Positions 14,499-35,911 of a DNA stretch of 41,541 bases are shown piece after piece. The notes beneath the pieces are model-generated. The model was not told the origin of the DNA, made no database searches, and saw only the letters and a list, made by a program, of their open reading frames with translations. The DNA is from Parasporobacterium sp. (GTDB taxonomy: Bacteria; Bacillota; Clostridia; Lachnospirales; Lachnospiraceae). A program made the translations under genes and the position numbers. Location: NCBI GenBank assembly GCA_017510065.1, contig JAFWOB010000216.1, forward strand, positions 1-41,541, read 5' to 3'. Each line of letters opens with the position of its first letter. The stretch's first letter is position 1.

Positions 14499-14651
14499 TT
14501 TAATTCGCCTTTCACTGTTTTGGACGATGTTACATAGATGGCTCCGTCCTGTCAAGAAAAACCCGGGTTCAGGACCGGCTGCCGCTTGCATTTTGCGCCA
14601 TCTGTATTATTCTTTTCTTTAGAAAAATGTTTTTGATCGGGAGACTTGGAA

Positions 14652-15188
14652 ATGATCTACACGAATCATTATGAATCACCATTGGGGAACATTCTGCTTG
14701 CAGGTGATGAAGAAGGGCTAACCGGACTGTGGTTCAGTGAGGGCAGCAGATACAGCGGGCTCGGGCTGAAAAAAGACGCCGTTCCCCGCGAAACGGATTA
14801 TTTTGAGCAGACGAAGAACTGGCTGGATATTTATTTTACCGGCCGTGATCCCGGGTTCCTGCCGCGGATCCATCTGGTCGGCTCGGACTTCCGCAATCGT
14901 GTCGGGGAGATCATGTGTGAGATCCCCTTCGGAAAAACGGTCACCTATGGATGGATCGCCGATCAGATCGCGAAGGAACGCGGGCTTGCGAGGATGTCTG
15001 CGCAGGCAGTGGGCGGCGCAGTCGGCCACAATCCAATCTGCATCATCGTGCCCTGCCACCGGGTGGTCGGGACAAACGGGAGCCTGACTGGATATGGCGG
15101 CGGGATCCTGCGGAAAAAGGCCCTTCTGGAACTGGAGGGCGTCGACCTGCGCCGGTTTACGGTCCCAACGAAAGGGACTGCGCTTTAA
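14652..15188 (+). CDS. ogt: Methylated-DNA--[protein]-cysteine S-methyltransferase
   Basis: This 178-aa protein has the active-site motif IIVPCHRVVG (acceptor C135), the upstream DNA-binding helix-turn-helix (about 91-125, with IPFGKTVTYG) and the GYGGG loop near the C-terminus. It repairs O6-methylguanine and O4-methylthymine by transferring the alkyl group to its own Cys in a single-turnover reaction. Length fits the Ogt family, and there is no Ada regulatory domain. I chose ATG 14652 (GGGAG eight bases upstream) over TTG 14646, which is too close to the SD. Its 3' end runs into repeat array 1. Confidence 0.92.
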   Translation: MIYTNHYESPLGNILLAGDEEGLTGLWFSEGSRYSGLGLKKDAVPRETDYFEQTKNWLDIYFTGRDPGFLPRIHLVGSDFRNRVGEIMCEIPFGKTVTYGWIADQIAKERGLARMSAQAVGGAVGHNPICIIVPCHRVVGTNGSLTGYGGGILRKKALLELEGVDLRRFTVPTKGTAL

Positions 15189-15198
15189 CGTCCGGTGT

Positions 15199-15496
15199 TA
15201 TCTGCCAGGATGTTCTTAAAATAACCTTTCTTGAAAATCGAGAACACCCGGTGTTCTTTATTTCAGATATTTAGAAATAAAAGAATACAAAGTGTTCTTT
15301 ATTTTGGCAATTCTGATATTTGAGAACTGCCCATGTATTCTTAAATACCGAAAAATGCCCAGATAAGAATATTTTATATTCTTTTATAAAGCAAATCTAA
15401 AAATAAAGAATACACGGCCTGTTCTTTAAAAATGAAAAATGGCGAATAAAGAACATTTCGTATTCTCAAAAAAAGAAAAATCCTGATTTGAGAACA
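15199..15496. repeat. 41-bp-period palindromic array, copy 1
   Basis: Left arms (RAGAAYA) start at 15240, 15281, 15322, 15365, 15406, 15449 and 15490, giving steps of 41, 41, 43, 41, 43 and 41 bp. Each of the first six is followed after 5 or 7 bp by a right arm TRTTCTY; an unpaired right arm at 15211 opens the array and an unpaired left arm closes it. Right arms pair with the next left arm across 22-nt A-rich loops, and the pairing is kept where bases change (TTCTT/AAGAA, TTCTC/GAGAA). It fills the gap between the convergent ogt and MATE genes. I see no coding potential and do not recognise the family. Confidence 0.85.
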
Positions 15497-15537
15497 GTCT
15501 CCCCACCAAATCAAGACTCCATAACCGGTAACCGCTT

Positions 15538-17322
15538 TCAGATCCGGACGATCAGGTTATTGACTCCGAAGGATGCGCAATAGCTTGCCTCCCTGGCGAT
15601 CTTCATGATGATAGACAGGCCCGGTTCGTCGGTTTCTGCACAGTCTGCCTTGACCGCCTCATAATAATCGATCAGATTCAGGGGCTTGCAGTCGTCGCGC
15701 AGGCGGATGATCAGATCCGCATCTTTTGCCACCAGCCTTGCATAGATATTGTGAGGTTTTCCATCTACAAAGCCATGTTCCGACAGGAAGATTGCCAGCT
15801 CCTCCACCAGAAGGCCATAGGTCCGGGCACGTTTCCGGTCTGCTTCATGCTCCAGGGCGAAAGCAACGGCGATATGTGACAATTCCTGGATCTCATCGAC
15901 AGAGGTGGCGATGATCGCAAGCTCATTCTCTTCGGAAACGCCGAAGGTTTCCGGAAGCAGCAGCATTTTCTCCCGGAAGGAACCTGCCTGCCGATTTCGG
16001 GAAATGTAAAAGATTGCCAGAGCACTGAGAACAGCCATACTGATCGGCTTGGAGATCCATGCGCCGTGATAACCTGCGGCCAGCAGGGTCAGCAAGGTGA
16101 CGGGCACCGGAACGCCGCATTCGATCAGAAAGCTGTAGACTCTGCAGAAATGCGGTCTTTTCCCCACCATCAGATAATTGTTGAAGCTGTAGACGATGGC
16201 GTGGAAAGGCAGTGAAAGGCACGCCACCCGGATACATTCCACACTCATGATCATGGCGGCAGGATCCTCTGATTTCATGAGGACTGACGCTGCCGGCCCT
16301 GCAAAAGCAAAGAGAACTGCCATTACGAATCCGGTAAAAAAGAGGCCATGGATCAGAGCAAGCTTCTGAACTTCTTTCAGAGACTCCCTGTCTTCTTCAC
16401 CGATAAAGAGCCCCGTAAACGCTTGCAGCGAGTCCGCAGGAGCATACCAGGATGAACGGACGAACACGGTGATCTGCGAAAACACACCATAAGCTGCTAC
16501 CAGATACGGCATGCTCATGGCTGTGAGCATATTGTTGATCAGGATGCCGCCCAGAAAACTGCTGGTTTTGACGATACCGGCAGGCGCACCGATCTTAAGT
16601 ATCTCCAGACATTGCACGGGATCCACTTTTCGGAAAGAAAAATGGAATGCATGACGGTTTTTCCGCCGCAGGAAATACGATACACAGAAAAAGAAAGGAA
16701 CGATATATCCCAGGGAAGTTGCCAGACCGATCTCAAACATACCGCCATACAGAACAAAGACCACAAAAGCATCTGCTGCCACATCAATGCCAGTGGTCAG
16801 TAAGGAAATGCCGGTCACCAGAGGATATTTTCCCTCGATCTGCAGATAAGGGGTCAGGATCCTGGTCAGGGCAAAAAAGGGGAATCCAATGAGATAGCCA
16901 TAGATATAACCGAAAGTCATCTGCATGATCCCAGGTGCTCTGGCACCAAGGAGCATCGAAACGCCGGAGCAGAAGATCGAAACCAAAAGGACCATAAACA
17001 GCGATAACACAGCGCCTGAAAACAAAGATCCTGAAAACGCCCGGTCCGCTTCCTCCTGTTTTCCGGCTCCGATCAGCGAAGAGACTTTGTTCCGCGCCCC
17101 GCTGCTGATAGTGGTCCCCACCAGTTCAAAGAGCATGATCAACGGGCCGACGTACCCGATGACCGTCACTCCATCCGTGCCGATAAACTGGCTGATGAAC
17201 ACCAGATCGATCATCGGCCCGAGCGCTTTCGAAATATCCGAAACTGTATAGGACACTTCCGCCTTACGGAACAGCCGGCGCAGTATCTTGTCATAACCTT
17301 TTTTGTTGTCGATCGTTTTCAT
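15538..17322 (-). CDS. MATE-family transporter fused to an RsbW-like HATPase domain
   Basis: This 594-aa protein is a MATE/MatE membrane protein over about 1-440, with twelve hydrophobic segments and two related halves. It continues into a soluble domain (about 450-594) that resembles the GHKL ATPases of the RsbW/SpoIIAB anti-sigma group: LLVEELAIFLSEHG corresponds to the N-box helix, RLRDDCKPLN to the G1 box (DDGxPF), and GLSIIMKIAREASY to the G2 helix. Several box residues are altered, so ATP binding or kinase activity is uncertain. No SD is evident before ATG 17322, which lies 28 bp after the UroD-type gene, so coupled translation is likely. MATE proteins are cation-driven exporters; the fusion suggests regulation by nucleotide or partner binding. 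Last gene of the pucR-pfkB-uroD operon. Confidence 0.8.
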   Translation of the reverse strand: MKTIDNKKGYDKILRRLFRKAEVSYTVSDISKALGPMIDLVFISQFIGTDGVTVIGYVGPLIMLFELVGTTISSGARNKVSSLIGAGKQEEADRAFSGSLFSGAVLSLFMVLLVSIFCSGVSMLLGARAPGIMQMTFGYIYGYLIGFPFFALTRILTPYLQIEGKYPLVTGISLLTTGIDVAADAFVVFVLYGGMFEIGLATSLGYIVPFFFCVSYFLRRKNRHAFHFSFRKVDPVQCLEILKIGAPAGIVKTSSFLGGILINNMLTAMSMPYLVAAYGVFSQITVFVRSSWYAPADSLQAFTGLFIGEEDRESLKEVQKLALIHGLFFTGFVMAVLFAFAGPAASVLMKSEDPAAMIMSVECIRVACLSLPFHAIVYSFNNYLMVGKRPHFCRVYSFLIECGVPVPVTLLTLLAAGYHGAWISKPISMAVLSALAIFYISRNRQAGSFREKMLLLPETFGVSEENELAIIATSVDEIQELSHIAVAFALEHEADRKRARTYGLLVEELAIFLSEHGFVDGKPHNIYARLVAKDADLIIRLRDDCKPLNLIDYYEAVKADCAETDEPGLSIIMKIAREASYCASFGVNNLIVRI

Positions 17323-17350
17323 GATGTCTTATGTCAAGTCTGCTGCAATC

Positions 17351-18316
17351 TCATGTATAGCGGTAACTTCCTCCGTAACGAACGATCTCGTTTTTGACGA
17401 TCTCCAGTTTTTCCGCGTTTGTAGGGATGTATGCCGGCATATAGGCACCGCCGGAGGAATTCTCGTCGATAGCCCTGCGGACTTCTGCCCGGATCTCCTC
17501 TTCCCCGGTTCCTTCTGCATCGATCATCTGATTGTTCAGTCCGCCGATCAGACAGATGGCATTTCCAAACTCCTTTTTGATCTGCGGAATATCATTGCAG
17601 ACATTTAAGGGGCTCAATGCATCCACTCCGATCTCCACCAGGTCTTTGACGATCGGCATGACATAGCCGCAGGAGTGATGTTCATAAAGCATCCCCAGTT
17701 TGTGAATATGCTCTGCAAACCGTTTCTCATGTGGTTTGAAAAACTCCCGCCACAGCTCGGGCGACAGCAGCATGGAAGTCTGCATGCCCCAGTCGTCCTG
17801 CATCTGGATCACATCCGGATGAACGGTTTCATACAGTTTATCGATACAGGCGATCCGGTTCTCTTCCATCGCATCAAGAAAGGCATGTACTTCATCCGGG
17901 GAATCATAAAAGGCGCACAGGGAGTTTTCAAATCCTGCCAGATAATGCATTCGCTCAAACGGGCCAGACAGAAGAAGTCCAAATACAACGATATCTGACC
18001 GGTCTTCCGGGACCATGGATTTCGTGATCTGCCATGGCAGCTTATTAACATCCGGAAAATGCACCTTCTCCCGCCAGTCATCAAAGTCATCCATCAACTC
18101 GCTGCCGGGAACCGGAGTCGGTCCGTTAAGACCGGGATTGCCTCCTCCAAAATGCCACCTGACACCCCAGGCATCATAGCCTTCGCCTGCCTGCTGAATA
18201 TAATTATCCCCAAGGCAGATGGCGCCTTTCAGTACCTGTTCCGGGCAGGGAACATAATCCTGCGGCTCTCTTCGATATGCTGCCAGAACACATTCCTTCA
18301 TCGTCTGCATGGTCAT
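17351..18316 (-). CDS. UroD-family (MtaA/MtbA-like) methyltransferase, second copy
   Basis: This 321-aa UroD-superfamily protein has H214-x-C216 in YEHHSCGYVM, the HxC-G zinc motif of corrinoid-linked methyltransferases, and the acidic loop QMQDDWGMQ (around 171-179). It shares the WREKVHFPD region with the protein at 4631-5671 but is clearly diverged. GGAGG lies five bases before ATG 18316, and the gene starts 17 bp after the PfkB kinase. No corrinoid partner is near. Role: probable methyl-group or related C1 transfer on an unknown substrate, or a decarboxylase of the same fold. Confidence 0.75.
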   Translation of the reverse strand: MTMQTMKECVLAAYRREPQDYVPCPEQVLKGAICLGDNYIQQAGEGYDAWGVRWHFGGGNPGLNGPTPVPGSELMDDFDDWREKVHFPDVNKLPWQITKSMVPEDRSDIVVFGLLLSGPFERMHYLAGFENSLCAFYDSPDEVHAFLDAMEENRIACIDKLYETVHPDVIQMQDDWGMQTSMLLSPELWREFFKPHEKRFAEHIHKLGMLYEHHSCGYVMPIVKDLVEIGVDALSPLNVCNDIPQIKKEFGNAICLIGGLNNQMIDAEGTGEEEIRAEVRRAIDENSSGGAYMPAYIPTNAEKLEIVKNEIVRYGGSYRYT

Positions 18317-18333
18317 AAATCCTCCGAATCTTT

Positions 18334-19299
18334 TCAGCAGATTTCATCAGGCGCCTTCATTGCATCGATAAATGCCATGACCTGCGCTCTATCCACTAAT
18401 GCGGTTCCTGCCCCTGCTGCCGTCGTGCAGATCGCTCCGCATGCATTGGCGAAAACCAGGGCTTCCCGGACCGTACTTCCCTGCAGGATCTCTGAAACAA
18501 ATCCGGCAATGAAGTTGTCTCCGGCGCCCGTGGAGTCAATAGCATGGACATCATATGCCGGGAGAAAGAAGGATTCTTTCCGATTCCGGAAATAACTCCC
18601 GTTTCTTCCCAGTTTGAGGATCACATTCTTCACTCCGTGATCCAGAAATACTTCCGCCATCTCTTCAGGAGCTTCCTTCCCTGTATAATATCTGGCTTCA
18701 TCTTCATTTGGGGTAATATAATCGATCAGCGGAAGGCTGTCAGAAAGGTCTTTCAGCTGAAGGACCCGGAAATTCGGAAGTTTGGTATCCGCAACTGTTA
18801 TGAGTCCATGCTGTTTCGCTGCAGCCAGGACTTCCTTTATGATCTCCGGATCGTCAAATGGTGCGCGGAACAAAGATCCAAGAGTGATCACTTTGGAAAC
18901 ATATTTTGCTATATCCACTTTTTCCGGATGGAAATTGTACCTGTGCGCCGGATTGGTGATGGAGCTTCTGGAGCTGTCCTCCCGGACAAGCATGGTCGTG
19001 ATCGGCGTCGGATGCTCCTTCTCCCACCGGATCGCATCTGTGCCTGCGCCGTACTGCTTCAGGGTACTCTCGATCATCTTCCCTGCCATATCCGTTCCCA
19101 GAAAACACAGGATGCCTGCGTTGACTCCCAGCTTGGACAGAGCAATCACTTCATTCACAGCTTCTCCGCCCACATTCAGGGAACAGGACCGGGCCCTGTA
19201 TCCCGACGCCGAAACCGGCTCCGGGTCAAAGCCCTGTACGATCGCGTCTAAAAGCGCAACACCGATACAGAGCACGTCATATTTTTCTGTTTTGGTCAT
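18334..19299 (-). CDS. PfkB/ribokinase-family carbohydrate or nucleoside kinase
   Basis: This 321-aa protein has both PfkB signatures: the N-terminal GGEAVNEVIALSKLG (44-58) that binds the sugar hydroxyls, and DSTGAGDNFIAGF (255-267) with the catalytic base D261 and anion hole. TPNEDEA (196-202) is the usual ATP-side motif. Substrate could be a ketose, aldonate or (pseudo)nucleoside; the sequence does not decide. The SD is weak. It follows the PucR-type gene by about 80 bp and precedes the UroD-type gene by 17 bp, so the kinase is probably induced by the compound sensed by that regulator. Confidence 0.85.
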   Translation of the reverse strand: MTKTEKYDVLCIGVALLDAIVQGFDPEPVSASGYRARSCSLNVGGEAVNEVIALSKLGVNAGILCFLGTDMAGKMIESTLKQYGAGTDAIRWEKEHPTPITTMLVREDSSRSSITNPAHRYNFHPEKVDIAKYVSKVITLGSLFRAPFDDPEIIKEVLAAAKQHGLITVADTKLPNFRVLQLKDLSDSLPLIDYITPNEDEARYYTGKEAPEEMAEVFLDHGVKNVILKLGRNGSYFRNRKESFFLPAYDVHAIDSTGAGDNFIAGFVSEILQGSTVREALVFANACGAICTTAAGAGTALVDRAQVMAFIDAMKAPDEIC

Positions 19300-19378
19300 C
19301 TTCGCATCAGCCCTTCTTTGTTTCTCAGGGCAATTATATCCCTTTCTGCAATTTTATTCAGCAATAAAACCAGTATAC

Positions 19379-20539
19379 CTACGCCGGTGATACCATATGC
19401 AGGAGCAAACATGCGATCTGATAAGGCAGTCTCTCATCCGGCGTTTCCAGGGAACTGCCCAGCATCTGCCGGATGTTTTTCATCCGATAGGTGACCGTAT
19501 TGCGATGGGTAAACATCGCTTCCGCCACGGCCTGGATACTGCCGTTGTACTTCAGATACAGCTCCAGGGTCCTGATATAATCTGTGCCGTGTTTTTCATC
19601 ATACCGGATGAGCGGCCCCAGAGACTCACTGCTAATCTGCCTCAAAAGCTCCCGGTCCCAGACAGAATACAGGATCCTGTACACGCCCATTTCATCGAAC
19701 ACCACCAGGGAATTCCCTGTCTCCTGTGACATGGAAACAGCCGCCAGGGCCCTTTGATAAGAGATGTGAAGATTCATGATGTCAGTCACTAAAGAACCGC
19801 AGCCGATGTGCAGTTTCTGTGTCATGATCTTTTTGGCCCGTTCCATAAAACTCCTGATGATCTCCATGGACAGTCCTATTTCAACAGCATTGATCACCAG
19901 GACAAAATTGCCGTTGTAGTAAAAGAAATGCGCATTATGGGTAAGGTTTTTCAGATAGATCTGGACGCGGTATCCCAGCCTTCTTCTTTCCACGGTATCC
20001 ATTTTATCGAGGCCTTCGGTCGTGATCAGGAACACCTGGAATGTCCCGTCCGTATCAAACACCGGCAGAAGAACATTGACATACAGATTCCTGGCATCCG
20101 GCTGTTCAATGGCATGGATCAGGGCTTCTGAGATCTGCTCATCCGCGGTACCCTGCAGAAACACCCGTATACTCAGATCTTTGATCATATCTACCAGATA
20201 TACGCTCCAGGGCACAGAAAGCAGCGGAAAGTCATGTTCGTCGCAGTATTTCCGGACAGCCTCGGGTATCTCTTCCACATACGGCCCTGTATTAACGATC
20301 AGTCCTGAAGAGTCATGCCGGACCAGGCTGCTGACCAGTTCCAGCAGCCGCTCTTCCGTCTGGAACCCCAGCCCTGTGGTTACCGCCAGTTCCTTCCCGG
20401 AAAAATTGCTGATAATGGTCAGATCCTCGATCATAATGATCCAGCTGATCGAATTCGACCATCCGTTTTCGCCTGCCACCAGTTTCATCCTGTATTTATC
20501 CCTGGAAGCCACCATCATGTCTTCTATCGTAAATGCCAC
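19379..20539 (-). CDS. PucR-family transcriptional regulator
   Basis: This 386-aa regulator has the classic PucR layout: an N-terminal PucR domain (about 5-120; MIEDLTIISNFSGKELAVTTG is its signature region, residues near 36-56), a middle domain, and a C-terminal HTH (AVAEAMFTHRNTVTYRMKNI, about 45 residues from the end). It starts with GTG 20539, preceded by AGAGG and a seven-base gap. It is the first gene of the kinase/UroD/MATE operon. A palindrome, GTGCT-CAC-AGCAC (20560-20572), about 20 bp upstream of the start, is a possible autoregulatory site. It is distinct in domain make-up from the regulator at 2937-4505, which lacks a clear PucR N-domain. Confidence 0.88.
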   Translation of the reverse strand: MAFTIEDMMVASRDKYRMKLVAGENGWSNSISWIIMIEDLTIISNFSGKELAVTTGLGFQTEERLLELVSSLVRHDSSGLIVNTGPYVEEIPEAVRKYCDEHDFPLLSVPWSVYLVDMIKDLSIRVFLQGTADEQISEALIHAIEQPDARNLYVNVLLPVFDTDGTFQVFLITTEGLDKMDTVERRRLGYRVQIYLKNLTHNAHFFYYNGNFVLVINAVEIGLSMEIIRSFMERAKKIMTQKLHIGCGSLVTDIMNLHISYQRALAAVSMSQETGNSLVVFDEMGVYRILYSVWDRELLRQISSESLGPLIRYDEKHGTDYIRTLELYLKYNGSIQAVAEAMFTHRNTVTYRMKNIRQMLGSSLETPDERLPYQIACLLLHMVSPA

Positions 20540-20559
20540 TTCTGCACCTCTCTAAATAT

Positions 20560-20572
20560 GTGCTCACAGCAC
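20560..20572. promoter_or_regulatory. Small palindrome upstream of the PucR-family gene
   Basis: GTGCT and AGCAC flank CAC, about 20 bp before the GTG start. It could be an operator for the adjacent regulator, but the site is short and has no second copy that I found. Confidence 0.25.
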
Positions 20573-20687
20573 CAATTTTACCATAAATGTTTCATCCGGT
20601 AACCCATAGAAAGTGTATTTTTATATGCTATCATTACACCGGTCGAGAGAAAAGAAAAAAGAGAAAGAAAAACAGGAGGATAAAGAG

Positions 20688-20840
20688 ATGATGATGTTTG
20701 TTCCTGAAGATAAATTACAGCATTCACCGGATTGGTGGAATTGTGAGAGATATGATTACTGTGACGTGATCATGAAAAAAGAAGACACTGACAACCTGTT
20801 CAACAGATTAGTCAAAAAATTTTCACAGCTGTTTGCATAA
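20688..20840 (+). CDS. 50-aa small protein of unknown function
   Basis: ATG 20688 has a perfect AGGAGGA seven bases upstream and opens a 50-codon frame rich in Asp, Glu, Lys and aromatics (PDWWNCERYDYCDVI in the middle, two Cys). There is no signal peptide or membrane helix. A strong terminator follows within 25 bp, so it is a self-contained transcription unit. The longer frame from 20613 begins in a purine-rich leader and is not supported. I do not recognise a family. Confidence 0.65.
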   Translation: MMMFVPEDKLQHSPDWWNCERYDYCDVIMKKEDTDNLFNRLVKKFSQLFA

Positions 20841-20860
20841 ACAAAGTGATAAAAAACAAC

Positions 20861-20897
20861 GCTCCTGCCAGACCTGCTATAGGCTGACAGGAGCTTT
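20861..20897 (+). terminator. Rho-independent terminator after the small protein gene
   Basis: GCTCCTG...CAGGAGC forms the stem of a hairpin with a long loop (CCAGACCTGCTATAGGCTGA), followed by TTTTTATTT. It may also serve the convergent hydrolase gene on the minus strand. Confidence 0.85.
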
Positions 20898-20927
20898 TTA
20901 TTTACCGGTCACTAGTACGGTTTTCTT

Positions 20928-21794
20928 TCATCGTTCCATTGTAAGAAGCGGATAAAGCTTCTGCTCAAACGCCCTGCTTTCTTCCCGGACAGCGTTATGA
21001 AATCCCGGCATATAAACAAGTTCCAGTCCAAACCTGTCTGCGACACGCTTTGCAGCGATGCCATGAGGCGCATCATTCCCTGTTTCCTGCCCGCACAGCA
21101 CCAGCGCATTCATCCCCTCCGGGAGCTTTTTCGGCAGGATATCAGAGCTGAAGGTCAGCAGGAATTCATTCTTGATGAAGTTGTATCCATTCTTCATAAA
21201 GAAATGCACTTCATGCTGGTTCATTTCTCTTTTCGATTCCCTGGGGTCTGTGACAAACAGGAGAAACCTGTTCAGGGCTCTGTTATATCGCTGTCCCCGG
21301 ATGTTTTCTTTGATCTCTTCGATGATCTCCCACACCTGGGCGTCCTCCTTCATCAGGATATAAGCCGGCGGTTCATGTAAAAACAGCTGCCGGATCATTT
21401 CCGGATGCTCCGCCGCCAATGCTATGGCAACAAACGCTCCGGCACTGCAGCCGAGCACAACGGCCGGTTCTTTCGAATACTCCTTTAGCACCAGGCAGGC
21501 GTCTTTTGCCTGTCTTCGGTAATACTCCTGTCCGTCCGTTACGCCGGGATATAATTCCTGGTCCTTCTCTTTGCCATCGGTTCCGCTGTATCCGTAGCCT
21601 CTGCGGTCATAGGTGATCACATGATATTTCTCAGACAGGATCTCTGCGAAATCCGCAAAGAATTCGCTGTCCACAACAGCGCCATGGATCAGCAGCAAAG
21701 GCTGTCCCTGTCCGATGTGTCGGGTATACAGAAGGGCTCCGTCTCCGGTTTCGATCATTTTGTTTGTCCAGTCCATATTCATTTTCCATTTCAT
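20928..21794 (-). CDS. Alpha/beta-hydrolase
   Basis: This 288-aa protein has the HG oxyanion motif (LLLIHGAVV, around 33-41), DRRGYGYSG in the strand before the nucleophile, the elbow GCSAG with its Ser, and a late His in GFHNAVRE. There is no signal peptide. Such sequences include esterases, haloperoxidase-like and hydrolytic C-C enzymes; substrate is not predictable. The start is uncertain: three Met codons lie within the first seven residues and none has a good SD. It is a single gene, convergent with the small protein gene. Confidence 0.8.
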   Translation of the reverse strand: MKWKMNMDWTNKMIETGDGALLYTRHIGQGQPLLLIHGAVVDSEFFADFAEILSEKYHVITYDRRGYGYSGTDGKEKDQELYPGVTDGQEYYRRQAKDACLVLKEYSKEPAVVLGCSAGAFVAIALAAEHPEMIRQLFLHEPPAYILMKEDAQVWEIIEEIKENIRGQRYNRALNRFLLFVTDPRESKREMNQHEVHFFMKNGYNFIKNEFLLTFSSDILPKKLPEGMNALVLCGQETGNDAPHGIAAKRVADRFGLELVYMPGFHNAVREESRAFEQKLYPLLTMER

Positions 21795-22140
21795 GACATT
21801 TTTTCGCAGATATCGTCATTATACTTAAGGAAAGGTGTCTGATAAAGTACAATCAAACTTCCAGACATAAAAAACAGCCAGAACCGTTGGCTTTCAACGC
21901 ATTCTGACTATCTAAAAAAGGAGAAGGAAATCTGAAAAAGATTTTTATCCGATAAATTCTCTAACAGTTATTATTGACTTAATGTGCCTGTATTATAATC
22001 CATTATATATGACGATGTAAGGTGTTTTCTTGACTTATTATTAGTCGATATTGACTTTTTTAAAAAAGCAAAAGGGCCCGCAGATTTCTCTGCGAGCCCT
22101 TTTTGTATGCTTTGTGCTGATTGTTCTGTTTTTCAGGCGA
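21795..22140. other. Non-coding AT-rich interval
   Basis: This 346-bp gap has no convincing ORF. It holds a plus-strand TATAAT (21994-21999) with TTGACT only 14 bp before it, stops in all frames, and the terminator at 22072-22108. A short untranslated transcript from about 22006 to the terminator is possible but not demonstrable. Confidence 0.4.
22072..22108. terminator. Bidirectional rho-independent terminator
   Basis: AAAGGGC...GCAGA / TCTGC...GCCCTTT forms a long stem around TTTC, with T tracts on both strands. It lies 30 bp past the stop of the membrane protein gene on the minus strand. Confidence 0.85.
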
Positions 22141-22809
22141 TCAGTTCTCCGCCAGCATCTTCTTTGCTTTTCCAAGAAAGACCAGGTACAGGATGTAAAC
22201 GATCAGTGAGACGATCTCTGCAGCCAGGGATAGAATGCCGACAACACGGCTCGTTGCGGCATTGGCGCCAAAGAATACCGGAATGATACGAACGATGATC
22301 TGGACTGCATAAACGACGATCAGCAGTATCATATAAGTATTTCCTGTGGCAACCATATCCGGCCTGTTCAGCTGCTTTGCCAGATTCTGAACTCCGTTGA
22401 TGATAAAGATCGTTGCGATCATAGCAAGGATATTGGCAACCGTTGTACTCATATTGTCCCAGGTTCCGTAAAGCCAGATCGAAGAAATGATCAAGGAAGC
22501 CAATGTCAGGATCAGAGAACACAGAATGTACATGTACGCCTGATTGAAGATCGGTTCATCCTGAGCAGCGCGTTTTGTTCCGATCATCAGAAAAAGCAGA
22601 CCGATCAGGGAAAGAATGCCGCCTGCAAGTCCGAAAACCGCAAGACCGATACCACCGGTGAGCGCCGTATCTCCGGAAGCAGTTGCCATACCGGCAAGTG
22701 CAACTACGCCAAAAACTGCAAAAATGATCATACATGCTGCGCCGATCAGTGACAGGATCTCTGCAGTAAAGATTTTCTTAACGCCCTGATAGGCATTTGG
22801 AAATTTCAT
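22141..22809 (-). CDS. Integral membrane protein, unknown function
   Basis: This 222-aa protein has about six hydrophobic segments (near 16-42, 50-76, 90-112, 122-140, 157-178 and 185-212) separated by short loops and no recognisable catalytic motif. AAAGGAG lies before ATG 22809. It ends at a strong terminator and appears monocistronic. It could be a DUF-type small membrane protein of gut Clostridia; nothing in the context suggests a role. Confidence 0.75.
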   Translation of the reverse strand: MKFPNAYQGVKKIFTAEILSLIGAACMIIFAVFGVVALAGMATASGDTALTGGIGLAVFGLAGGILSLIGLLFLMIGTKRAAQDEPIFNQAYMYILCSLILTLASLIISSIWLYGTWDNMSTTVANILAMIATIFIINGVQNLAKQLNRPDMVATGNTYMILLIVVYAVQIIVRIIPVFFGANAATSRVVGILSLAAEIVSLIVYILYLVFLGKAKKMLAEN

Positions 22810-22996
22810 AATAATACTCCTTTCAACTGGTAAATCTATGTTCGTTCATTGATAGCAGGTTTTACACAACTAGCGCCGGATACTATCACAAAGGGATATA
22901 GGATTCAAGCCTTTTTACTTATTCAGCGTTGCATTCATGCTCCCCAGCCTGTACCCTTTCAAGTCAGGTGTGACAAACAGGAAGCCCGGAAATGCC

Positions 22997-23764
22997 TCAA
23001 TGCTCTGCTGTAAGATCATTCACGATTTCTCCTGCAATGATAAGTCCTGCCACTGACGGAACAAACGCCGTTGATCCCGGAATGTCTCTTCGGTCTGTGC
23101 ATTTTCTTGCAGTTCCGGGAGGACAGATACAATGCTGCCTGCAGCTGATAGACATATCCTCTAATGGCCGAATCGGTTTTTCCTTTGAGTAAACTACCTT
23201 CAGGGAGTCGATACCGCGTTTCCTGCATTCCCGGCGCATGACTCTCGCAAGAGGACAGATGGATGTTTCATAAATATCAGCAACTTCAAATGCTGACGGA
23301 TTCACCTTGTTCCCTGCTCCCATGCAGGAGATGATCGGAACACCGGCTTTCTTTGCATTTTCGATGATGGAAAGCTTACCGGTAACTGTGTCGATCGCAT
23401 CTACTACATAATCGTATTCACGAAAATCGAACTGATCCTGTGTTTCAGGAAGGTAGAATGTCCTGTAGGTTCTGACTTTGCAATCGGGATTGATCTCATG
23501 GACTCGTTCCGCAGCAACGTCCACTTTGTACTTTCCGACAGTTCTTCTGGTTGCAAGGATCTGTCGGTTGAGGTTCGCAAGGCAGACTCTGTCGTCATCG
23601 ATCAGATCCAGCGCGCCGATGCCGGAACGGGCAAGGGCCTCCACCACGTAACCTCCCACACCGCCGATTCCAAAGACGGCAACACGACAGGCAGCAAGCT
23701 TTTGCATTGATGCCTCCCCATATAGAAGCTGCGTTCTTGAAAACTGATTCAGCACTTCTTTCAA
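22997..23764 (-). CDS. tcdA: tRNA threonylcarbamoyladenosine dehydratase (TcdA/CsdL)
   Basis: This 255-aa E1-like protein has the nucleotide-binding motif VFGIGGVGGYVVEALARSG (30-48), the DDDRVCLANLNRQ region (about 56-68) that contacts ATP, and the conserved VVDAIDT aspartate loop. Length and the N-terminal FSRTQLLYG motif fit TcdA, which dehydrates t6A37 in tRNA to cyclic ct6A using ATP, rather than MoeB/ThiF (no zinc CxxC pair in canonical spacing). It starts 7 bp downstream of a cupredoxin remnant. Confidence 0.9.
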   Translation of the reverse strand: MKEVLNQFSRTQLLYGEASMQKLAACRVAVFGIGGVGGYVVEALARSGIGALDLIDDDRVCLANLNRQILATRRTVGKYKVDVAAERVHEINPDCKVRTYRTFYLPETQDQFDFREYDYVVDAIDTVTGKLSIIENAKKAGVPIISCMGAGNKVNPSAFEVADIYETSICPLARVMRRECRKRGIDSLKVVYSKEKPIRPLEDMSISCRQHCICPPGTARKCTDRRDIPGSTAFVPSVAGLIIAGEIVNDLTAEH

Positions 23765-23771
23765 CTCCCTT

Positions 23772-24041
23772 TTACTCTACAACTTTAATATTGCTCTTGA
23801 TCATACCCATCCGGCAGCTGTAAGGAATCGTTCCCGTTTCGTCCGGGGTAAAAGAAACCATATTTTCCCCTTCATGAAGCTTGACAGAAAGATCAAAAGC
23901 CGGAACCACGATCTCACTGTTGCATCCATTCAGCTTTCCTTCCGGTTTTGTGAAAGGAATTGCCGGAATATAACGGATAACCGAAAAATCGGAAGACTCT
24001 TGCGAATCTTCCGTTACCTTAGCAGCGTTCCCAACTGGCAA
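23772..24041 (-). pseudogene. C-terminal remnant of a cupredoxin-domain protein
   Basis: The 89-codon frame encodes the last two thirds of a cupredoxin-like domain: NGCNSEIVVPAF, GENMVSFTPDETGT and YSCRMGM, the latter with the Cys and Met positions of copper sites in such proteins. Full-length relatives carry an N-terminal membrane or sulfite-exporter-like region that is absent here; upstream of residue 18 there is no homologous sequence, the only start is TTG without an SD, and stops follow. I read it as a decayed gene end. Confidence 0.55.
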
Positions 24042-24220
24042 TTGTAGCTGTCATAACTCTTCACAATCTATTGCCTCTCAACGCATTACCTATTTATATA
24101 GTAGGTGAGTATTGTATCATGGCATACCTATTATTCAATCAATAGGATTTCAGCTAAAATCGCTGCATCTTCTTTTGTTCGTGTTACGGATTTCAAAGAT
24201 TCTGATAGATAAACTCGAAT

Positions 24221-24724
24221 TTATAATTGTAAAGACAATGGCGAATATTCCATAAACTCGATCCTGTTGCCCTCAGGATCATGGATCCAGAACTGCCAGG
24301 TATAATCAGGCCCCTGATTGATCTGTGTATCAGGTTTTACCCCCTTATGCAGCATTTCTTCGTAGGTGTCCCGGATATTTTCTACCTGGATCGCCAGATG
24401 CTGATAACCATACCGGTCAGCTAAAGAAGCCGGCTCTTTCAGAAATTCTCTTACATGAAAGATCTCCAGAAACTGATGGTGTGCCATCTCCAGGTACGTG
24501 ATCATAGGCAGTCCGGGATTCGCTTCGGCAAACTCAATAAACCCTTTCTCCTGTTCAGAAGGCTCTATCCCCTGCTCTTTCTGATATTGGAAGAATTCAG
24601 TTATCCCATCTGTTGTAAGAGTGAATTTCCGTTTCATCCCGATCTTGTCACAGTAGAAAGCGATCAGTTTTTCTGCGTCAAGAGCATTGAATGCTATATG
24701 ACCATAGGATACTATTCTGTGCAT
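24221..24724 (-). CDS. VOC (glyoxalase/bleomycin-resistance) family protein
   Basis: This 167-aa protein has two beta-alpha-beta-beta-beta modules of the vicinal oxygen chelate fold. Likely metal ligands are the His in YGHIAF (H9), the Glu in QFLEIFH, the His in GYQHLAIQV and the Glu in NRIEFMEYS. AGGAGGGAG lies just upstream of ATG 24724. Members include lactoylglutathione lyase, methylmalonyl-CoA epimerase and dioxygenases; the length fits an unspecified lyase or dioxygenase-like group. Monocistronic. Confidence 0.85.
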   Translation of the reverse strand: MHRIVSYGHIAFNALDAEKLIAFYCDKIGMKRKFTLTTDGITEFFQYQKEQGIEPSEQEKGFIEFAEANPGLPMITYLEMAHHQFLEIFHVREFLKEPASLADRYGYQHLAIQVENIRDTYEEMLHKGVKPDTQINQGPDYTWQFWIHDPEGNRIEFMEYSPLSLQL

Positions 24725-24819
24725 CTGATATCTCCCTCCTTCTGTTTTGAAGCATCATTTCTGATGATTGTGTTCTGCTGCGTTATTCAGGGGATGACAA
24801 GCATCAAGGCGTTCAGAAA

Positions 24820-25048
24820 GCTTTTTTCGAAAAAAATGTACAGATTTTTGAGTTGTGTACGTTTTCTTACCTGCATATTGGATTTTCAGCTTCTATTCTT
24901 GTGCTTTTCATTATTTCAATTGGCAATTATCACCATGAATCCACGGTGTGCTTTATGAAATCTGCACTAACAGGAGCGATTAGCAACCCGACACGCCCTG
25001 CATAAATGGTACACAACTCGAGTTTTTGTACACTTTTTTCAAAAAAGC
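24820..25048. mobile_element. MITE-like element with about 40-bp terminal inverted repeats
   Basis: The left end (24820-24860) reads GCTTTTTTcGAAAAAA, TGTACA and GAGTTGTGTAC; the right end (25009-25048) is its inverse, GTACACAACTC, TGTACA, TTTTTTCAAAAAAGC. The 148 bp between have no ORF. The element lies between the VOC gene and the S66 peptidase gene and accounts for most of that 367-bp gap. No target duplication was evident by eye. Confidence 0.6.
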
Positions 25049-25091
25049 ACATTTCTCTTCTGCAAATGCATAATATGGGAGTGCATCTCCC

Positions 25092-25928
25092 TTATTCAAA
25101 AACGATTTCCTGCCCTATCACGATTGCCTTGGAATCATGCCCGTGCCCGATCTCTTTTGTGGCTGCCACCGGCAGGCTCTCATTTATATGCATTTTCAAA
25201 AGATCATACACGGTCAACTTAAGATCTGCGTTTTCATAATCCGTAAATGTTCCCAACAGCACCCCGTGAACCTGATCAAACACGCCCATATGTTCCAGCT
25301 GAGTAAACATCGCTGCGATCTGCCCTGACTCACCGCCCAACGATTCCAGCAGCAGGATCTTACCCTGCATATCCGGCCAGTATGGCGTTCCAGCCAGCTT
25401 TAGCAGGCATCTTATATTGCCGCCAAGCAAGATCCCCTCCATCCTTTTTCCCTGAAGGAATCTGTATTTTATGTTGAATAACCGGGATCTGTCGCCATTT
25501 AAATACTCCATGAACCTGGTTCTTTGTAATTCTGCTTCTGAATATACCAGGTTCTTGATCAGCCACAATACCGAGGGTTTCCCGGCAACAGCGTAGATCG
25601 CATTGATGATTGTCGTCAGGTCGCTGTATCCCCAGAATGTTTTGCCTGAATCTGCGATGACATCATAATCCAGATATTTCAGGATCCCATTTGCCAGATC
25701 CCCGCCTGAAATATCATATATCGCATCAATGGAAGGGTCCCTGTAGAACTTCATAAGATCCTCTGCGCGTTCTTCAGCTGTTCCGCCGAATTCATCTACA
25801 GCGGCATAGATATGGGAAGCCTGCACCGGTTCTATGCCAAAGCTCTCAAGAACTGTCATCAGTTCATCATTTTGATCTTTCCATTCCCTGTTCTGTCCAT
25901 TTGAACAGGCGGTTATACCTATCTTCAT
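25092..25928 (-). CDS. Peptidase family S66 (LD-carboxypeptidase/MccF-like)
   Basis: This 278-aa cytoplasmic protein carries the S66 catalytic triad: the Ser in FWGYSDLT (S102), the Glu in ILLLESLGG (E195) and the His in EIGHGHDS (H262). An N-terminal strand MKIGITACS matches the family start, so I start at ATG 25928; the longer frame to 26030 adds an unrelated Arg-rich tail that runs into array 2. Family members trim the terminal D-Ala from tetrapeptides in murein recycling (LdcA) or hydrolyse microcin C-type peptide-nucleotides (MccF). Sequence alone does not decide between the two. Confidence 0.85.
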   Translation of the reverse strand: MKIGITACSNGQNREWKDQNDELMTVLESFGIEPVQASHIYAAVDEFGGTAEERAEDLMKFYRDPSIDAIYDISGGDLANGILKYLDYDVIADSGKTFWGYSDLTTIINAIYAVAGKPSVLWLIKNLVYSEAELQRTRFMEYLNGDRSRLFNIKYRFLQGKRMEGILLGGNIRCLLKLAGTPYWPDMQGKILLLESLGGESGQIAAMFTQLEHMGVFDQVHGVLLGTFTDYENADLKLTVYDLLKMHINESLPVAATKEIGHGHDSKAIVIGQEIVFE

Positions 25929-26036
25929 GATTCGAACTCTCTTTCGCTCACATGTATTATTGGATTGTTTTGATCCTTTTTTCTGCTCATCCGCGATCCC
26001 GTGCTGCAGATAATTCCTGCGTCTTGCCATGCTGGG

Positions 26037-26363
26037 TATTCTCAGATCAGCCTATTTTCGGTTTTGAGAACACCCTCTGTTCTTAAATCCGGGTTTTTCA
26101 TATTTAAAGAATACAATGTGTTCTTGAATCGGATTATTTTCATTTTTAAGAACTGGTCAAATATTCTTTATTTTTTATTTAGCCTCAAAAAAGAATATAA
26201 ACTATTCTTCTTTGAACATTTGACGGAATTTAAGAATACTCGGACTGTTCTCAAATATTCAAAAATCCTGATTTGAGTACATTTTATGTTCTTAATATTT
26301 AAAAACAGCCCAAAAAAGAACACCTCGGGTTCTCAAAATGCAGAAATGGCTGAAACAAGAACA
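26037..26363. repeat. 41-bp-period palindromic array, copy 2
   Basis: Left arms start at 26066, 26107, 26148, 26191, 26232, 26275, 26316 and 26357, steps 41, 41, 43, 41, 43, 41 and 41. Linkers to the right arms are 5, 5, 7, 5, 7, 5 and 5 bp. This is the same rhythm as the array at 15199-15496, and the arms correspond unit by unit, so the two are homologous. An unpaired right arm (TATTCTC, 26037-26043) opens it and an unpaired AAGAACA closes it. Paired stems across the 22-nt loops include TCTCAAAT / ATTTGAG (26249-26277). It lies between the 5' end of the S66 peptidase gene and the 3' end of the lipase-like gene. Confidence 0.85.
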
Positions 26364-26399: not shown

Positions 26400-28658
26400 T
26401 CAAGCCAGCAGCTCTTTCTCCGGTCTCTTTCGGAAAAAGGTACTGACGGTCAGAGCGGTAAGGCCTGCGATGCAGGCACAATACAGGATAAAATGCCCGG
26501 TAGAGGAAGAGGCCAGCGAACTTTTCTGATACAGGAAGATATTCGCAAACCCCAGAAGCAGCATCAGTCCTGCAATCATCAGGTTCGGGATATTTCTCTG
26601 CCGGATAAAACCCCTGAGCGCCAGGAGAAAGAGCACGAACATCGTAATCCCGGCGCATATTTCCCGGGTCTTTCCTATGCTGAACATATTCACCGTAAAG
26701 AACTGGGTCAGGAGCATGAAGACTCCGATCACCAGAAGGTGGGGGACAATGATATACCAGGCGGAAAATGGCTGATGTCCTCTTCTGCGGCGTATAAGAT
26801 GCACGATCAGGATCACAAGGCATACCAGCAGCAATGCAAGGACAAACACTGCCGCATATAACAGGATCTGCAGCAGGGTGCCCATGTTGATATGCTCTTC
26901 GGCAGAACTTTCGTTACTCATGACCATGGTGGGAGAATAGTGGAACCCTGTTTCCACGACATTTGAAATATCTCCTTCCAGTGCCGTCAGCCTGGTCAGA
27001 TCCTCTGTCCCCTCTACCGTCATTTCATAGATTCCCTTCTGGAGATTCTGGATAAACATGGTATCCGAATCGCCGAAGGTCGAATCGGGCGTATTGAGCA
27101 CATCATAATAGATCAGGTTTTCCGGTCCGTCTGTCAGGACACGGACCTGATACTGACCATCCGCCGGCACGTTGACTACCGTTTGCCTTCCATTTCGGAA
27201 AATATAGACATTCGTCAGATAATAAGCGCCCAGGATATCTTCAGACACAGATATTCCCTGCTCCTCAAACGAATCCCTGAAATAGATCTCCCCATTCCTG
27301 TCCAGGCCGCTCAGGAAAAATCCGTCTTCCCATACTTCCACATCCACATTTCCAAAAAAGGAGAGCCTTCTGGTCGTCCACGGCCCCACAAGCAGCATCT
27401 CCAGATCAATATCAGAGAACATCCAACAGATATAGGTATAGGGCATGTGTTCCCGCAGCACGTTTTCCGCGATCTTCTGATCCGGATTCCATAATCCGCG
27501 GTCCACCTGGGCCGTATTTCCTTTCAGATGCCTGGACATGATATAAGTCAGATAGTCAATGAAGATCTCACTGCTGTATGCTTCTCTCTGATTCAGTTCT
27601 TTCATCGCGGAGAGGGCTGACATCAGGATAGAACCGATCCGTTCCGGATCCGCCTCCGTCCAGTATCTCATGAGGGTATCCTGGAATTTTGCCGCATAGT
27701 CCGCGCTGGTGGGAAACAGTTCATTCAAAAATTCTATGATCAGATGAAGCTGGTAATTGATCTCCGGATTAAAATAGAACATGTCTCCGGTGAGATCGTA
27801 ATTCGTGATGGAATTATAGATGGTATATATCATGTATTGGCTGTCCATCTCCTGCGCCGGCGTATAATAATCTGTGCCGTAACGCTCATATCCCCAGGTT
27901 TCCATCGGGATCATGGTTACCGGATCATATTTTCCGCAGATATTGTATATTCCCCGATAATCAAAATGATCTTCTGCCCGGGTCGTGCGGGGCACCCCGT
28001 ACAGATAGGCATACACATCTTCAAACCGGCCGGAATCGATCATATCTGCTGCCGTCAGATTGGACACTGCCGCCGCACGGGAGAATCCAGAAAGCCATAT
28101 CTTCATCTTGCCTGTCAGCTGATGTTCCCTGATATAATCGTTGATCTTTCCCTCCAGGATCTGAGCGGCCTTATTAAATCCCACATGCCGTTCCTCATTT
28201 CCGACTTCCAGGTTGCTGGCCCATTCTTTTCCATACCCCTGCCCGCAAGGCGCTGCAGCGATCAGAATAAAGTCATCGATCCTTTTACAGCCGATCACGC
28301 CGGACAGGGTATCTTTTGTCGTCTCCTGATCATAACCAAAGGCATCAAGATCCGTAAAACCGGCGGCTGTCAGATACGTTTCGTACTGATCCTCCAGATC
28401 CTGTCCGTTATTACGAAAAGCAGACAGCGCAAGTCCCAGGGAAGCTCTGGCCAGATCCAGGTAAAAGTATTCCGAAGATTCCCTGAAATAATCATCGGAA
28501 TAAGGATATTTCCAGTCCATGATCTGATGGCTGACCGGATTGACGCAGGGTACAGAAATCTCCAACTCCCGCTGCGCTGCGTGACCCGTCATGGGAGTCA
28601 GGCAGCAAAGGAGCATCAGCGCCAGGATTATCGAAAGTATTTTTCTTCCTAATTTCAT
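26400..28658 (-). CDS. Secreted/membrane lipase-like alpha/beta-hydrolase with C-terminal membrane domain
   Basis: This 752-aa protein starts with a signal peptide (MKLGRKILS, hydrophobic core, cleavage near GHAA at 25-28). The extracytoplasmic part contains the class-3-lipase-like elbow LSGFSRAAA (G-x-S-x-A form) near residue 190 and a following YGVPRTT strand, as in Mbeg1/DUF2974-type hydrolases. A beta-rich segment follows to about 590. The last 160 residues have about five membrane segments and an Arg-rich loop LIRRRRGHQ. AGGAAA precedes ATG 28658. Inference: a membrane-anchored outward-facing esterase or lipase. It is divergent from the vWA gene. Family certain at the fold level only. 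Confidence 0.75.
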   Translation of the reverse strand: MKLGRKILSIILALMLLCCLTPMTGHAAQRELEISVPCVNPVSHQIMDWKYPYSDDYFRESSEYFYLDLARASLGLALSAFRNNGQDLEDQYETYLTAAGFTDLDAFGYDQETTKDTLSGVIGCKRIDDFILIAAAPCGQGYGKEWASNLEVGNEERHVGFNKAAQILEGKINDYIREHQLTGKMKIWLSGFSRAAAVSNLTAADMIDSGRFEDVYAYLYGVPRTTRAEDHFDYRGIYNICGKYDPVTMIPMETWGYERYGTDYYTPAQEMDSQYMIYTIYNSITNYDLTGDMFYFNPEINYQLHLIIEFLNELFPTSADYAAKFQDTLMRYWTEADPERIGSILMSALSAMKELNQREAYSSEIFIDYLTYIMSRHLKGNTAQVDRGLWNPDQKIAENVLREHMPYTYICWMFSDIDLEMLLVGPWTTRRLSFFGNVDVEVWEDGFFLSGLDRNGEIYFRDSFEEQGISVSEDILGAYYLTNVYIFRNGRQTVVNVPADGQYQVRVLTDGPENLIYYDVLNTPDSTFGDSDTMFIQNLQKGIYEMTVEGTEDLTRLTALEGDISNVVETGFHYSPTMVMSNESSAEEHINMGTLLQILLYAAVFVLALLLVCLVILIVHLIRRRRGHQPFSAWYIIVPHLLVIGVFMLLTQFFTVNMFSIGKTREICAGITMFVLFLLALRGFIRQRNIPNLMIAGLMLLLGFANIFLYQKSSLASSSTGHFILYCACIAGLTALTVSTFFRKRPEKELLA

Positions 28659-35021: not shown

Positions 35022-35034
35022 AACCTCTACCTCA

Positions 35035-35063
35035 GATGACAAAGGGACGGTTCTTTTGTCACC
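35035..35063 (+). repeat. RAYT-associated repeat, left end of the element (plus polarity)
   Basis: Core 35037-35061. The final TCA of the core is, on the minus strand, the TGA stop codon of the RAYT gene. Confidence 0.92.
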
Positions 35064-35799: not shown

Positions 35800-35874
35800 G
35801 GTTGAGCACTCCTTTCTTTTATATCGTTCATCGTAATGTAATACAATCCAGAATGTCAAGACAAACAGAAAAAA

Positions 35875-35903
35875 GGTGACAAAAGAACCGTCCCTTTGTC
35901 ACC
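35875..35903 (-). repeat. RAYT-associated repeat, right end of the element (minus polarity)
   Basis: Core 35877-35901, about 75 bp upstream of the RAYT start. Arms GGTGACAAA and TTTGTCACC flank an 11-nt loop. It is also immediately downstream of the large oxidoreductase gene. Confidence 0.92.
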
Positions 35904-35911
35904 TTTCCGGA

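Follow-up and report, generated by a model that had tools for sequence, protein, structure and literature searches.

Phased DNA sites that are bound cooperatively are familiar from the lambda operators and from partition sites, in which dyads recur at whole helical turns and a symmetric complex is formed; one or a few such elements lie beside the gene of the protein that binds them. Two kinds of dispersed repeat also resemble the arrays described here. The BIMEs or REPs of enterobacteria and pseudomonads are, like these arrays, described as extragenic and dispersed, with palindromic units alternating in orientation; they are mosaic, often occupy convergent gaps and are insertion-sequence targets (PMC2817692, PMC1525189, PMC3733652). 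IHF, gyrase and DNA polymerase I are reported to bind BIMEs or REPs (PMC2817692). The BOX, RUP and SPRITE elements of pneumococcus are likewise described as short repeats interspersed in a single Firmicute lineage and found in excess between converging genes; BOX has a modular build, with a varying unit number and a predicted RNA fold, BOX and RUP have reported TIR and TSD, and the same account argues that the pneumococcal repeats gather between convergent genes through tolerance there, without function (PMC3049150).

The arrays, which a small group of ruminant-gut bacteria carries in dozens of intergenic copies, differ from each of these systems. Unlike lambda operators and partition sites, their copies are spread over the chromosome. 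Unlike BIMEs and REPs, they have spacers (22 or 27 nt) that hardly vary in length and a fixed number and order of units, and they fail the REP/RAYT tests, showing neither a GTAG or CGTC tag, nor compensatory stem changes, nor a cognate RAYT flanked by arrays (one gene tested in full). Unlike BOX, they vary very little in unit number and spacing and showed no RNA covariation, and no TSD was detected, in contrast to BOX and RUP. The sequence-only reading knew of no named family with this layout, and we likewise found no matching element family: the window (the whole 41,541-nt stretch of a Parasporobacterium sp. contig that was analysed) has no Rfam match at the gathering threshold, its first array has no match in plasmids or phages, and no equivalent is described in the literature searched.

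The two arrays of the window belong to one interspersed family

The window carries two arrays, listed in Table 1 together with the neighbouring genes, which are given as context only. The bounds previously assigned to array 2 were correct, but those of array 1 began 12 bp early, at 15199, where there is no unit; array 1 has seven clear units and no recognisable eighth. All recognised units of both arrays have the 22-nt loop that had been noted, in a scan set to look for that length. The common origin proposed for the arrays is borne out by 75% identity, with query bases 51–308 aligning to the minus strand. The 5/7 linker pattern is shared as described, but the arrays are actually inverted relative to one another and seem the same in order because the linker order is a palindrome. 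A search of the window for the 5-nt-linker dyad with at most two mismatches gave 12 matches against 1.55 expected; nine had at most one mismatch, all inside the arrays, and the remaining three lay outside.

Table 1. Arrays in the window and adjacent genes
Feature	Position	Strand	Description
Family A array 1	15211..15496	+	Seven 36-bp units TRTTCTY-N22-RAGAAYA; linkers 5-5-7-5-7-5; dyad centres ~15249, 15290, 15332, 15374, 15416, 15458
Family A array 2	26037..26363	-	Full eight units; linkers 5-5-7-5-7-5-5; dyad centres ~26075, 26116, 26158, 26200, 26242, 26284, 26325
ogt (6-O-methylguanine DNA methyltransferase)	14646..15188	+	3' end 22 bp from array 1
MatE-family transporter gene	15538..17322	-	Convergent; 3' end 41 bp from array 1
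LD-carboxypeptidase (Peptidase_S66) gene	25092..26030	-	5' end towards array 2
Lipase_3-domain protein gene	26400..28658	-	3' end 36 bp from array 2

Each of the two arrays is a copy of the same interspersed family (family A), which BLAST detects at 36 places in the genome of the window (G000) rather than at the two first described. A four-arm pattern, which is its own reverse complement, gave 102 matches in this genome and none for the reversed control, so the arrays are not a product of chance but a real repeat system.

Conserved dyads recur every four helical turns

Family A has a rotationally symmetric layout of eight 36-bp units joined by linkers of 5-5-7-5-7-5-5. Near-complete arrays measure 327 bp in 12 of 20 cases and 325–328 bp in the other eight; the 12, chosen for equal length, align without gaps and form the alignment used below, from which the eight were left out (an earlier alignment took only the 25 copies whose best match spanned at least 200 bases). 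The conserved unit is a double-stranded DNA dyad, AGAA-N9/11-TTCT, recurring every 41–42 bp, close to the four turns suggested by the sequence-only reading: successive centres are 41, 42, 42, 42, 42 and 41 bp apart, with N9 at the 5-nt linkers, N11 at the 7-nt linkers and a lone half-site at either end of the array. Dyads 3 and 6 are poorly symmetric, the second arm base being unpaired in 11 and 9 of the 12 copies, respectively. In a second subfamily the outer arm base is G/C, not A/T, on both sides at several 5-nt linkers (AGAACGC-AAA-GCGTTCT), so that the hairpin pair is lost. Taken as a whole, the array reads as an imperfect palindrome (identity with its own reverse complement 0.593, compared with 0.522 when spacers are shuffled), and units 1 and 8, at its two ends, are related in inverted orientation, with a loop identity of 0.73.

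Arm pairing does not exceed that of shuffled columns

Family A arms are able to pair across the 22-nt loop in 92.6% of cells, against 44–56% in slid registers, and across the linker in 90.0% (12 full arrays). The earlier proposal that the arms preserve their pairing as the sequence changes did not hold up: arm pairing among 40 copies showed no excess over column shuffles, and in the 12 full copies the covariation score of the arms was 0.098 compared with 0.093 for shuffled columns, 129 of 500 shuffles scoring as high. The linker dyads of the 12 full arrays did not covary either, including within the first subfamily, and arm pairing in 25 arrays of a second family, B (see below), was again in no excess over shuffled columns, three rows with broken units being kept in the test. 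Low p-values were obtained at single places, namely 0.033 at one hairpin position and 0.003 (beyond the arm) and 0.030 at linker positions in family A. In family B, single positions in the loop gave 0.018 and 0.046–0.049, and several in unit 4 gave about 0.04, with rows in which that unit is broken included. These few values among many tests do not form a pattern. An RNA consensus fold of the 12 full arrays does not pick the row of hairpins. Long hairpins do occur among the family B units, one example lying at G000:C110:88801.

A second family keeps its half-sites while its spacers diverge

Family B comprises 25 arrays built on the half-site TTTCTAAA, each with four TTTCTAAA...TTTAGAAA units in 211 or 210 bp and a middle of 33 or 32 bp. 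The search pattern allowed loops of 22–28 and linkers of 5–13 nt, and intact units have 27-nt loops (one of 26) and 11-nt linkers in all 25 arrays. With 50 and 72 bp between units, the spacing does not come in multiples of four turns. Comparison of eight orthologous B pairs showed changes at 12 of 609 half-site positions (2.0%), 197 of 1033 spacer positions (19.1%; half-sites against spacers, p = 6e-29) and 552 of 4171 flank positions (13.2%); for one pair (L113/L119) only the first 140 bp were used, and the comparison also took two A pairs, with L031/L070 (swapped centre) and L034/L068 (cut array) not counted. Between B paralogues the half-sites are fixed and spacer identity is 36–43%, compared with 26–28% expected from composition. 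For family B, L103 and L107, both similar to L115, were excluded; the same analysis also excluded L040, in which 141 bp duplicate L041 and L022. Fixed half-sites in arrays whose paralogue spacers share so little require ongoing constraint after copying. A census of inverted 7-mers at 59 G000 loci (259 kb, biased to arrays) revealed no third family.

Arrays lie at gene ends and exchange their centres

Family A arrays are extragenic and enriched between convergent genes, as are REPs and BIMEs. Among 28 G000 arrays entered, 18 had both neighbours resolved, and 12 of these occupied convergent gaps (9 of 59 control gaps) and none a divergent gap (17 of 59 control gaps). Family B is less biased, with 8 of 21 resolved arrays in convergent gaps. 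Of 53 A flank sides, 23 carry a terminator-like hairpin directed at the array, compared with 7 of 53 in shuffles; by eye, the neighbouring genes have nothing in common.

Array centres have been swapped between loci, one type replacing another at the same locus in L031/L070, L019/L063 and array 1 of the window/L076. In addition, arrays L020 of G000 and L065 of G012, a second genome of the genus, are alike over units 2–7 (0.78–0.92 per unit) and 88% identical over 292 bp, yet their flanks do not match. All eight B arrays of G012 lie at the same locus in G000 (L122 was matched on one flank). Target-site duplications did not rise above permutation (p 0.07 for 15 A arrays, p 0.81 for 15 B arrays), no parent transposon sharing terminal inverted repeats was found, and a family search of the window neighbours and two other ORFs recognised no transposase gene bracketed by arrays. 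Y1_Tnp (Pfam PF01797), searched in 14 genus genomes, had three matches in G000 and none in G012 (79% complete). The RAYT-like gene in the window (35059–35859), the one gene tested in full, is flanked by a different palindrome, the two other G000 loci (L127, L132) being covered by the inverted 7-mer census only; no RAYT flanked by array repeats was found, and RAYT mobilisation was set aside for lack of association with the arrays. By eye, no GTAG or CGTC tag beside a palindrome is conserved in the A and B alignments.

The family A pattern occurs in two of 14 genus genomes; 396 further genomes sampled across the taxonomic family yielded no match. Family B is present in the same two genus genomes, and pattern searches detected neither kind of array in the remaining 12. 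One or two B matches in each of four other family genomes were no more than in the reversed control, and neither a 33-bp match in a same-order genome (G054, L044) nor a match in an Erysipelotrichaceae MAG (L074) had, by eye, a surrounding array. The single A match in viral contigs, inside an AT-rich ORF, was attributed to chance, and family B had none there.

Discussion

We lean towards reading the arrays as double-stranded DNA platforms of phased sites for a putative dimeric DNA-binding protein. The protein would bind the dyad that spans the short linker (AGAA-N9-TTCT, with N11 at 7-nt linkers). With seven dyads about four helical turns apart and a single half-site at each end, dimers would align on one DNA face, and from this arrangement we infer that their cooperative assembly may build a complex with two-fold symmetry, about 327 bp long. 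The DNA from one dyad to the next would serve as a spacer whose length matters and whose sequence matters much less, and family B may be a second platform of the same style. By analogy with BIMEs, the role is probably architectural or topological (nucleoid anchoring, supercoil buffering or a domain boundary) and would not be promoter control; such a role appears most likely because the arrays lie at gene ends, those of family A mostly between convergent genes and often just past a terminator-like hairpin. Absence from 12 genus genomes argues against an essential one. Counting against a platform, 8 of 20 A arrays differ in length by 1–2 bp, two of seven dyads are poorly symmetric, the linker dyads do not covary and B spacing departs from four turns; functionless repeats may also collect in convergent gaps, and family B is less biased towards these.

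The same arms could instead form rows of hairpins in RNA or single-stranded DNA, as 3' structures that stabilise or end converging messages or as targets of HUH enzymes, a proposal that would suit their pairing far above slid registers (and nearly as often across the linker), the long hairpins among B units and the position at gene ends. We regard it as improbable, since pairing is in no excess over shuffled columns in either register or either family, the consensus fold does not yield such a row, Rfam has no match, terminator-like hairpins already stand on many A flank sides, and spacers nearly constant in length but free in sequence are better explained by DNA phasing. Of the two possibilities raised by the sequence-only reading, sites on one DNA face are the better supported. 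That reading did not describe the inverted orientation, the symmetry of the eight units as a whole, family B or the exchange among arrays; of the three outcomes that it named as refuting it, the lack of significant covariation came about, whereas further copies do exist and no known family matched. That the arrays are operators controlling adjacent genes is hard to credit: although the dyads resemble operators of dimeric repressors and array 2 lies upstream of the LD-carboxypeptidase gene, divergent, promoter-bearing gaps are avoided and the neighbouring genes share no theme by eye.

An old non-autonomous mobile element (MITE or BIME-like), consisting of transposase-binding DNA copied by an enzyme since lost or unrecognised, deserves more attention, and we consider it unlikely rather than remote. 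Its outermost units would be terminal inverted repeats, in keeping with the palindromic character of the whole array, and the dispersal of copies in one lineage, the L020/L065 resemblance between non-matching flanks and the replacement of centres at single loci all speak for it. However, neither target-site duplications nor an array-bracketed transposase gene came to light in the sets searched, the B arrays of G012 lie at the same loci in G000, and the constancy of B half-sites amid dissimilar paralogue spacers needs constraint after copying.

Extending the protein-binding platform, we tentatively suggest that the arrays may form a lineage-specific chromosome-architecture system, in which a predicted protein or paralogue pair would assemble on two kinds of two-fold symmetric array of regular geometry (~327 and 211 bp) located at the ends of genes, and exchange among loci would renew the array centres. 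Small interspersed palindromic repeats are often discussed as parasites or RNA structures; half-sites and distances that are kept while the letters between them drift offer a direct test of the idea that such repeats are chromosome-shaping platforms. Fixed geometry with free spacers also provides a search principle for elements that sequence alignment misses, as it does here because B paralogues share little beyond half-sites and spacing.

Interspersed family A arrays

Both palindrome arrays claimed in the sequence-only reading are present in the window, and their unit structure was confirmed: each 36-bp unit of this family (family A) reads TRTTCTY-N22-RAGAAYA, with two arms enclosing a 22-nt spacer. 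The arrays are also homologous, as claimed, but BLAST and alignment place them in inverted relative orientation. The dyad formed by two arms across a 5-nt linker between units matched nine times in the window with at most one mismatch, always within these arrays, and three times with two mismatches, outside both.

Coordinates of arrays and associated features
Feature	Location	Strand	Details
Family A array 1	window, 15211-15496		seven intact units; linkers 5,5,7,5,7,5
Family A array 2	window, 26037-26363		eight units; linkers 5,5,7,5,7,5,5
MatE-family gene	window, 15538-17322		594 aa
MatE-family gene	L076, 606-1184		192 aa
RAYT-like Y1 transposase gene	window, 35059-35859	-	Pfam Y1_Tnp, 43.7 bits
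Inverted palindromic repeat	window, 35034-35076 and 35862-35904		43 nt; flanks RAYT-like gene
Family A array L027	L027, about 3050-3418		nine units, the extra one attached via a 6-nt linker
Cousin array L061 (G012:C33)	L061, about 381-795		about ten units; constant 42-bp period

A repeat system calls for further copies, and these were found. With array 1 as BLAST query, the genome that carries it (G000; 3.47 Mb, 242 contigs) returned 64 matching pieces, counted as 36 places, some of which are the two ends of a single array split by an assembly break. A four-arm pattern matched 102 sites in G000 (reversed control, 0) and 19 in one other of the 14 genus genomes (G012); it matched in none of 396 other genomes of the family sample. 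A wider pattern, run on single representative genomes of 84,980 species, yielded 13 stretches: nine in Parasporobacterium sp. RGIG2565 (goat jejunum), two in Lachnospiraceae RGIG2573, one in RUG12788 and one chance match. The RUG12788 contig (L081) matches G000 over 3.2 kb at 99.8% identity and carries the sole array found by the two patterns in that 2.8-Mb genome, while both RGIG2573 arrays (L076, L078; genome 3.3 Mb) lie on 3-kb contigs. We infer that these are misbinned contigs of the same lineage; they also show that the arrays did not arise as artefacts of a single assembly.

Complete eight-unit arrays with linkers 5-5-7-5-7-5-5 were found at nine of the G000 loci scanned for units (array 2, L012, L013, L015, L017, L021, L025, L026 and L035) and one G012 locus (L062). 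Array length is exactly 327 bp in 12 of 20 near-complete arrays and 325-328 bp in the other eight; by arithmetic from unit positions, dyad centres in the standard layout are spaced 41, 42, 42, 42, 42 and 41 bp. The linker order is identical read from either end, as are most arm types, and spacer sequence is likewise symmetric across the array above chance (self-reverse-complement identity 0.593 versus 0.522 ± 0.008 with shuffled spacers; 12 arrays), most strongly in outer units (0.73 for units 1/8, 0.36 for units 4/5). The family A element is therefore a roughly two-fold symmetric object. Departures from the usual layout include the nine-unit L027 and the cousin array L061, which has distances of 28 (TTCT to AGAA) and 14 (AGAA to TTCT), 6-nt linkers and, by eye, left arms TATYCT; the ORF adjoining L061 had no Pfam match.

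Arm pairing and the linker dyad

If arms paired across the loop, a change in one should track the other, and the sequence-only reading held that pairing was kept through sequence change. This was not borne out, as family A arms showed no covariation excess. Across 40 copies, pairing of the arms over the loop exceeded column shuffles by a mean of ≤0.001 at each position; over all positions tested, isolated low p-values were 0.033 (unit 4, position 2) and, past the arm in the linker, 0.003 and 0.030. In 12 full arrays, covariation scores were 0.098 versus 0.093 shuffled for the hairpin and 0.082 versus 0.088 for the linker dyad. The RNAalifold consensus fold did not pick a row of hairpins, and the window had no Rfam match. 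Moreover, a second subfamily, present in G012 (L066-L070) and RGIG2573 with 0 pattern matches in G000 and with spacers mostly of 21-22 nt, has several 5-nt linkers where the outer arm base on each side is G/C instead of A/T, a change that preserves the linker dyad and disrupts the hairpin pair. This change points to the linker dyad, AGAA-N9/11-TTCT, as the putative site, and together these observations disfavour rows of hairpins in RNA or single-stranded DNA.

Family B and constraint on half-sites

A second family (B), with half-sites TTTCTAAA/TTTAGAAA, was met while examining an insertion sequence beside an array. Among the 14 genus genomes, its pattern occurs in the same two as family A, with 29 forward and 31 reverse matches in G000 and 14 and 13 in G012 (controls 0); in the wider family sample, four of 396 genomes besides G000 had one or two matches, not above the reversed control. 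The 25 arrays fetched (17 from G000, eight from G012) follow a 39-11-39-33-39-11-39 bp layout, except for four with a 32-bp middle and one 26-nt loop; L101 and L120 have no recognisable right arm in their fourth unit, and L119 stops inside its third. Paralogous spacers are 36-43% identical, against 26-28% expected from composition. No covariation was found at the arms of units 1-3 in the 25 arrays; low p-values came from single loop positions (0.018 and 0.046-0.049) and from unit 4, where several positions gave about 0.04 in a test that included rows with a broken unit 4. The arrays L103, L107 and L115 (G000:C37, C64 and C190) are mutually similar, and near-identical genes adjoin the latter two, which suggests strain variants merged in assembly.

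All eight G012 B arrays lie at the same locus in G000 (L122 matched via one flank). Over these orthologous pairs, with L113/L119 comparable in the first 140 bp only, changes amounted to 12/609 (2.0%) in half-sites (10-bp windows), 197/1033 (19.1%) in spacers and 552/4171 (13.2%) in the partly coding flanks within 300 bp (half-sites versus spacers, p = 6e-29). Overall length differs in one pair; the Poisson p of 0.00014 against the flank indel rate is generous, because the alignment has four gap events within the arrays, some cancelling. In family A, changes in arms, spacers and flanks were 2/112, 11/215 and 24/600 for L012/L062, and 6/111, 50/215 and 62/594 for L019/L063. Selection, or a process that resembles it, maintains half-sites and their distances and leaves the intervening letters to drift. 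Gene conversion alone is an unlikely cause of half-site conservation in family B, as the spacers are not homogenised.

Array exchange, genomic context and mobile elements

The loci beside a tRNA-Ser gene, L031 of G000 and L070 of G012, appear orthologous in their flanks and outer units, but their inner units come from different A subfamilies. In the L019/L063 pair, identity between orthologous units is 0.94 and 0.89 for the outer units 1 and 8 but 0.61 for unit 5, and unit 5 of L063 matches array 1 of the window at 0.97. In L076, a subfamily-2 array instead occupies the array 1 locus (ogt to the MatE gene), whose flanking pieces are 92.3, 95.2 and 86.2% alike; the MatE-family gene is much shorter there, apparently through an internal deletion. 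L020 and L065 have similar arrays in flanks without match. The fetched G000 set contains a flank-matched array for four of the ten G012 loci that carry A-type or cousin arrays. The exchange and the L020/L065 pair indicate that family A has some spreading history, via transposition or recombination. The main rival reading, a worn mobile element, draws on this history, although no target-site duplication of arrays was seen.

One crude gene caller placed A arrays of G000 in convergent gaps in 12 of 18 cases and in divergent gaps in 0 of 18, against 9/59 and 17/59 for other gaps at the same loci (p = 6e-5). A looser caller assigned 50 A loci, orthologues counted twice, as 17 convergent, nine tandem, three divergent and 21 unresolved; one divergent case, L031 (orthologue, L070), becomes tandem once the tRNA gene is counted. 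Resolved B arrays were convergent (8 of 21), tandem (11) or divergent (2). Terminator-like hairpins are directed into the array on 23/53 A flank sides (shuffles, 7/53) and 13/34 B flank sides (shuffles, 5/34), so that many arrays come after an ordinary terminator.

Eight matches in G000 belong to a mobile element whose transposase is of Mutator type (IS256-like); four of them adjoin A arrays (L029, L033, L037, L099; an uncontrolled count). L098 and L096 are the two sides of a single such insertion, ≤20 bp from a B array and with a 9-bp repeat in both; L097 holds the opposite side of the insertion at L033, by comparison with L081, and L100 has no array within its fetched flank. In both genomes, several insertion sequences break or touch arrays (L029, L033, L037, L099, L098/L096, L024, L038, L039, L069). 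By analogy with REPs, described as preferred insertion-sequence targets (PMC1525189), arrays may be such targets too, the observation being uncontrolled.

The arrays would work much as BIMEs do, but they have neither the REP/BIME tag nor compensatory stems, nor a cognate RAYT as judged from the one gene examined in full: the RAYT-like gene in the window scores 43.8 bits with NCBIfam REP_Tyr_transpos, under the cut-off of 80, and its flanking repeat is unrelated to the arrays. On these three features we keep the arrays out of that class, and with Rfam also blank for the window, the sequence-only remark that no named family with this layout is known stands within this scope. Judged from sequence, the arrays fit best as a phased double-stranded DNA platform for putative protein binding, which would have an architectural role at gene ends.
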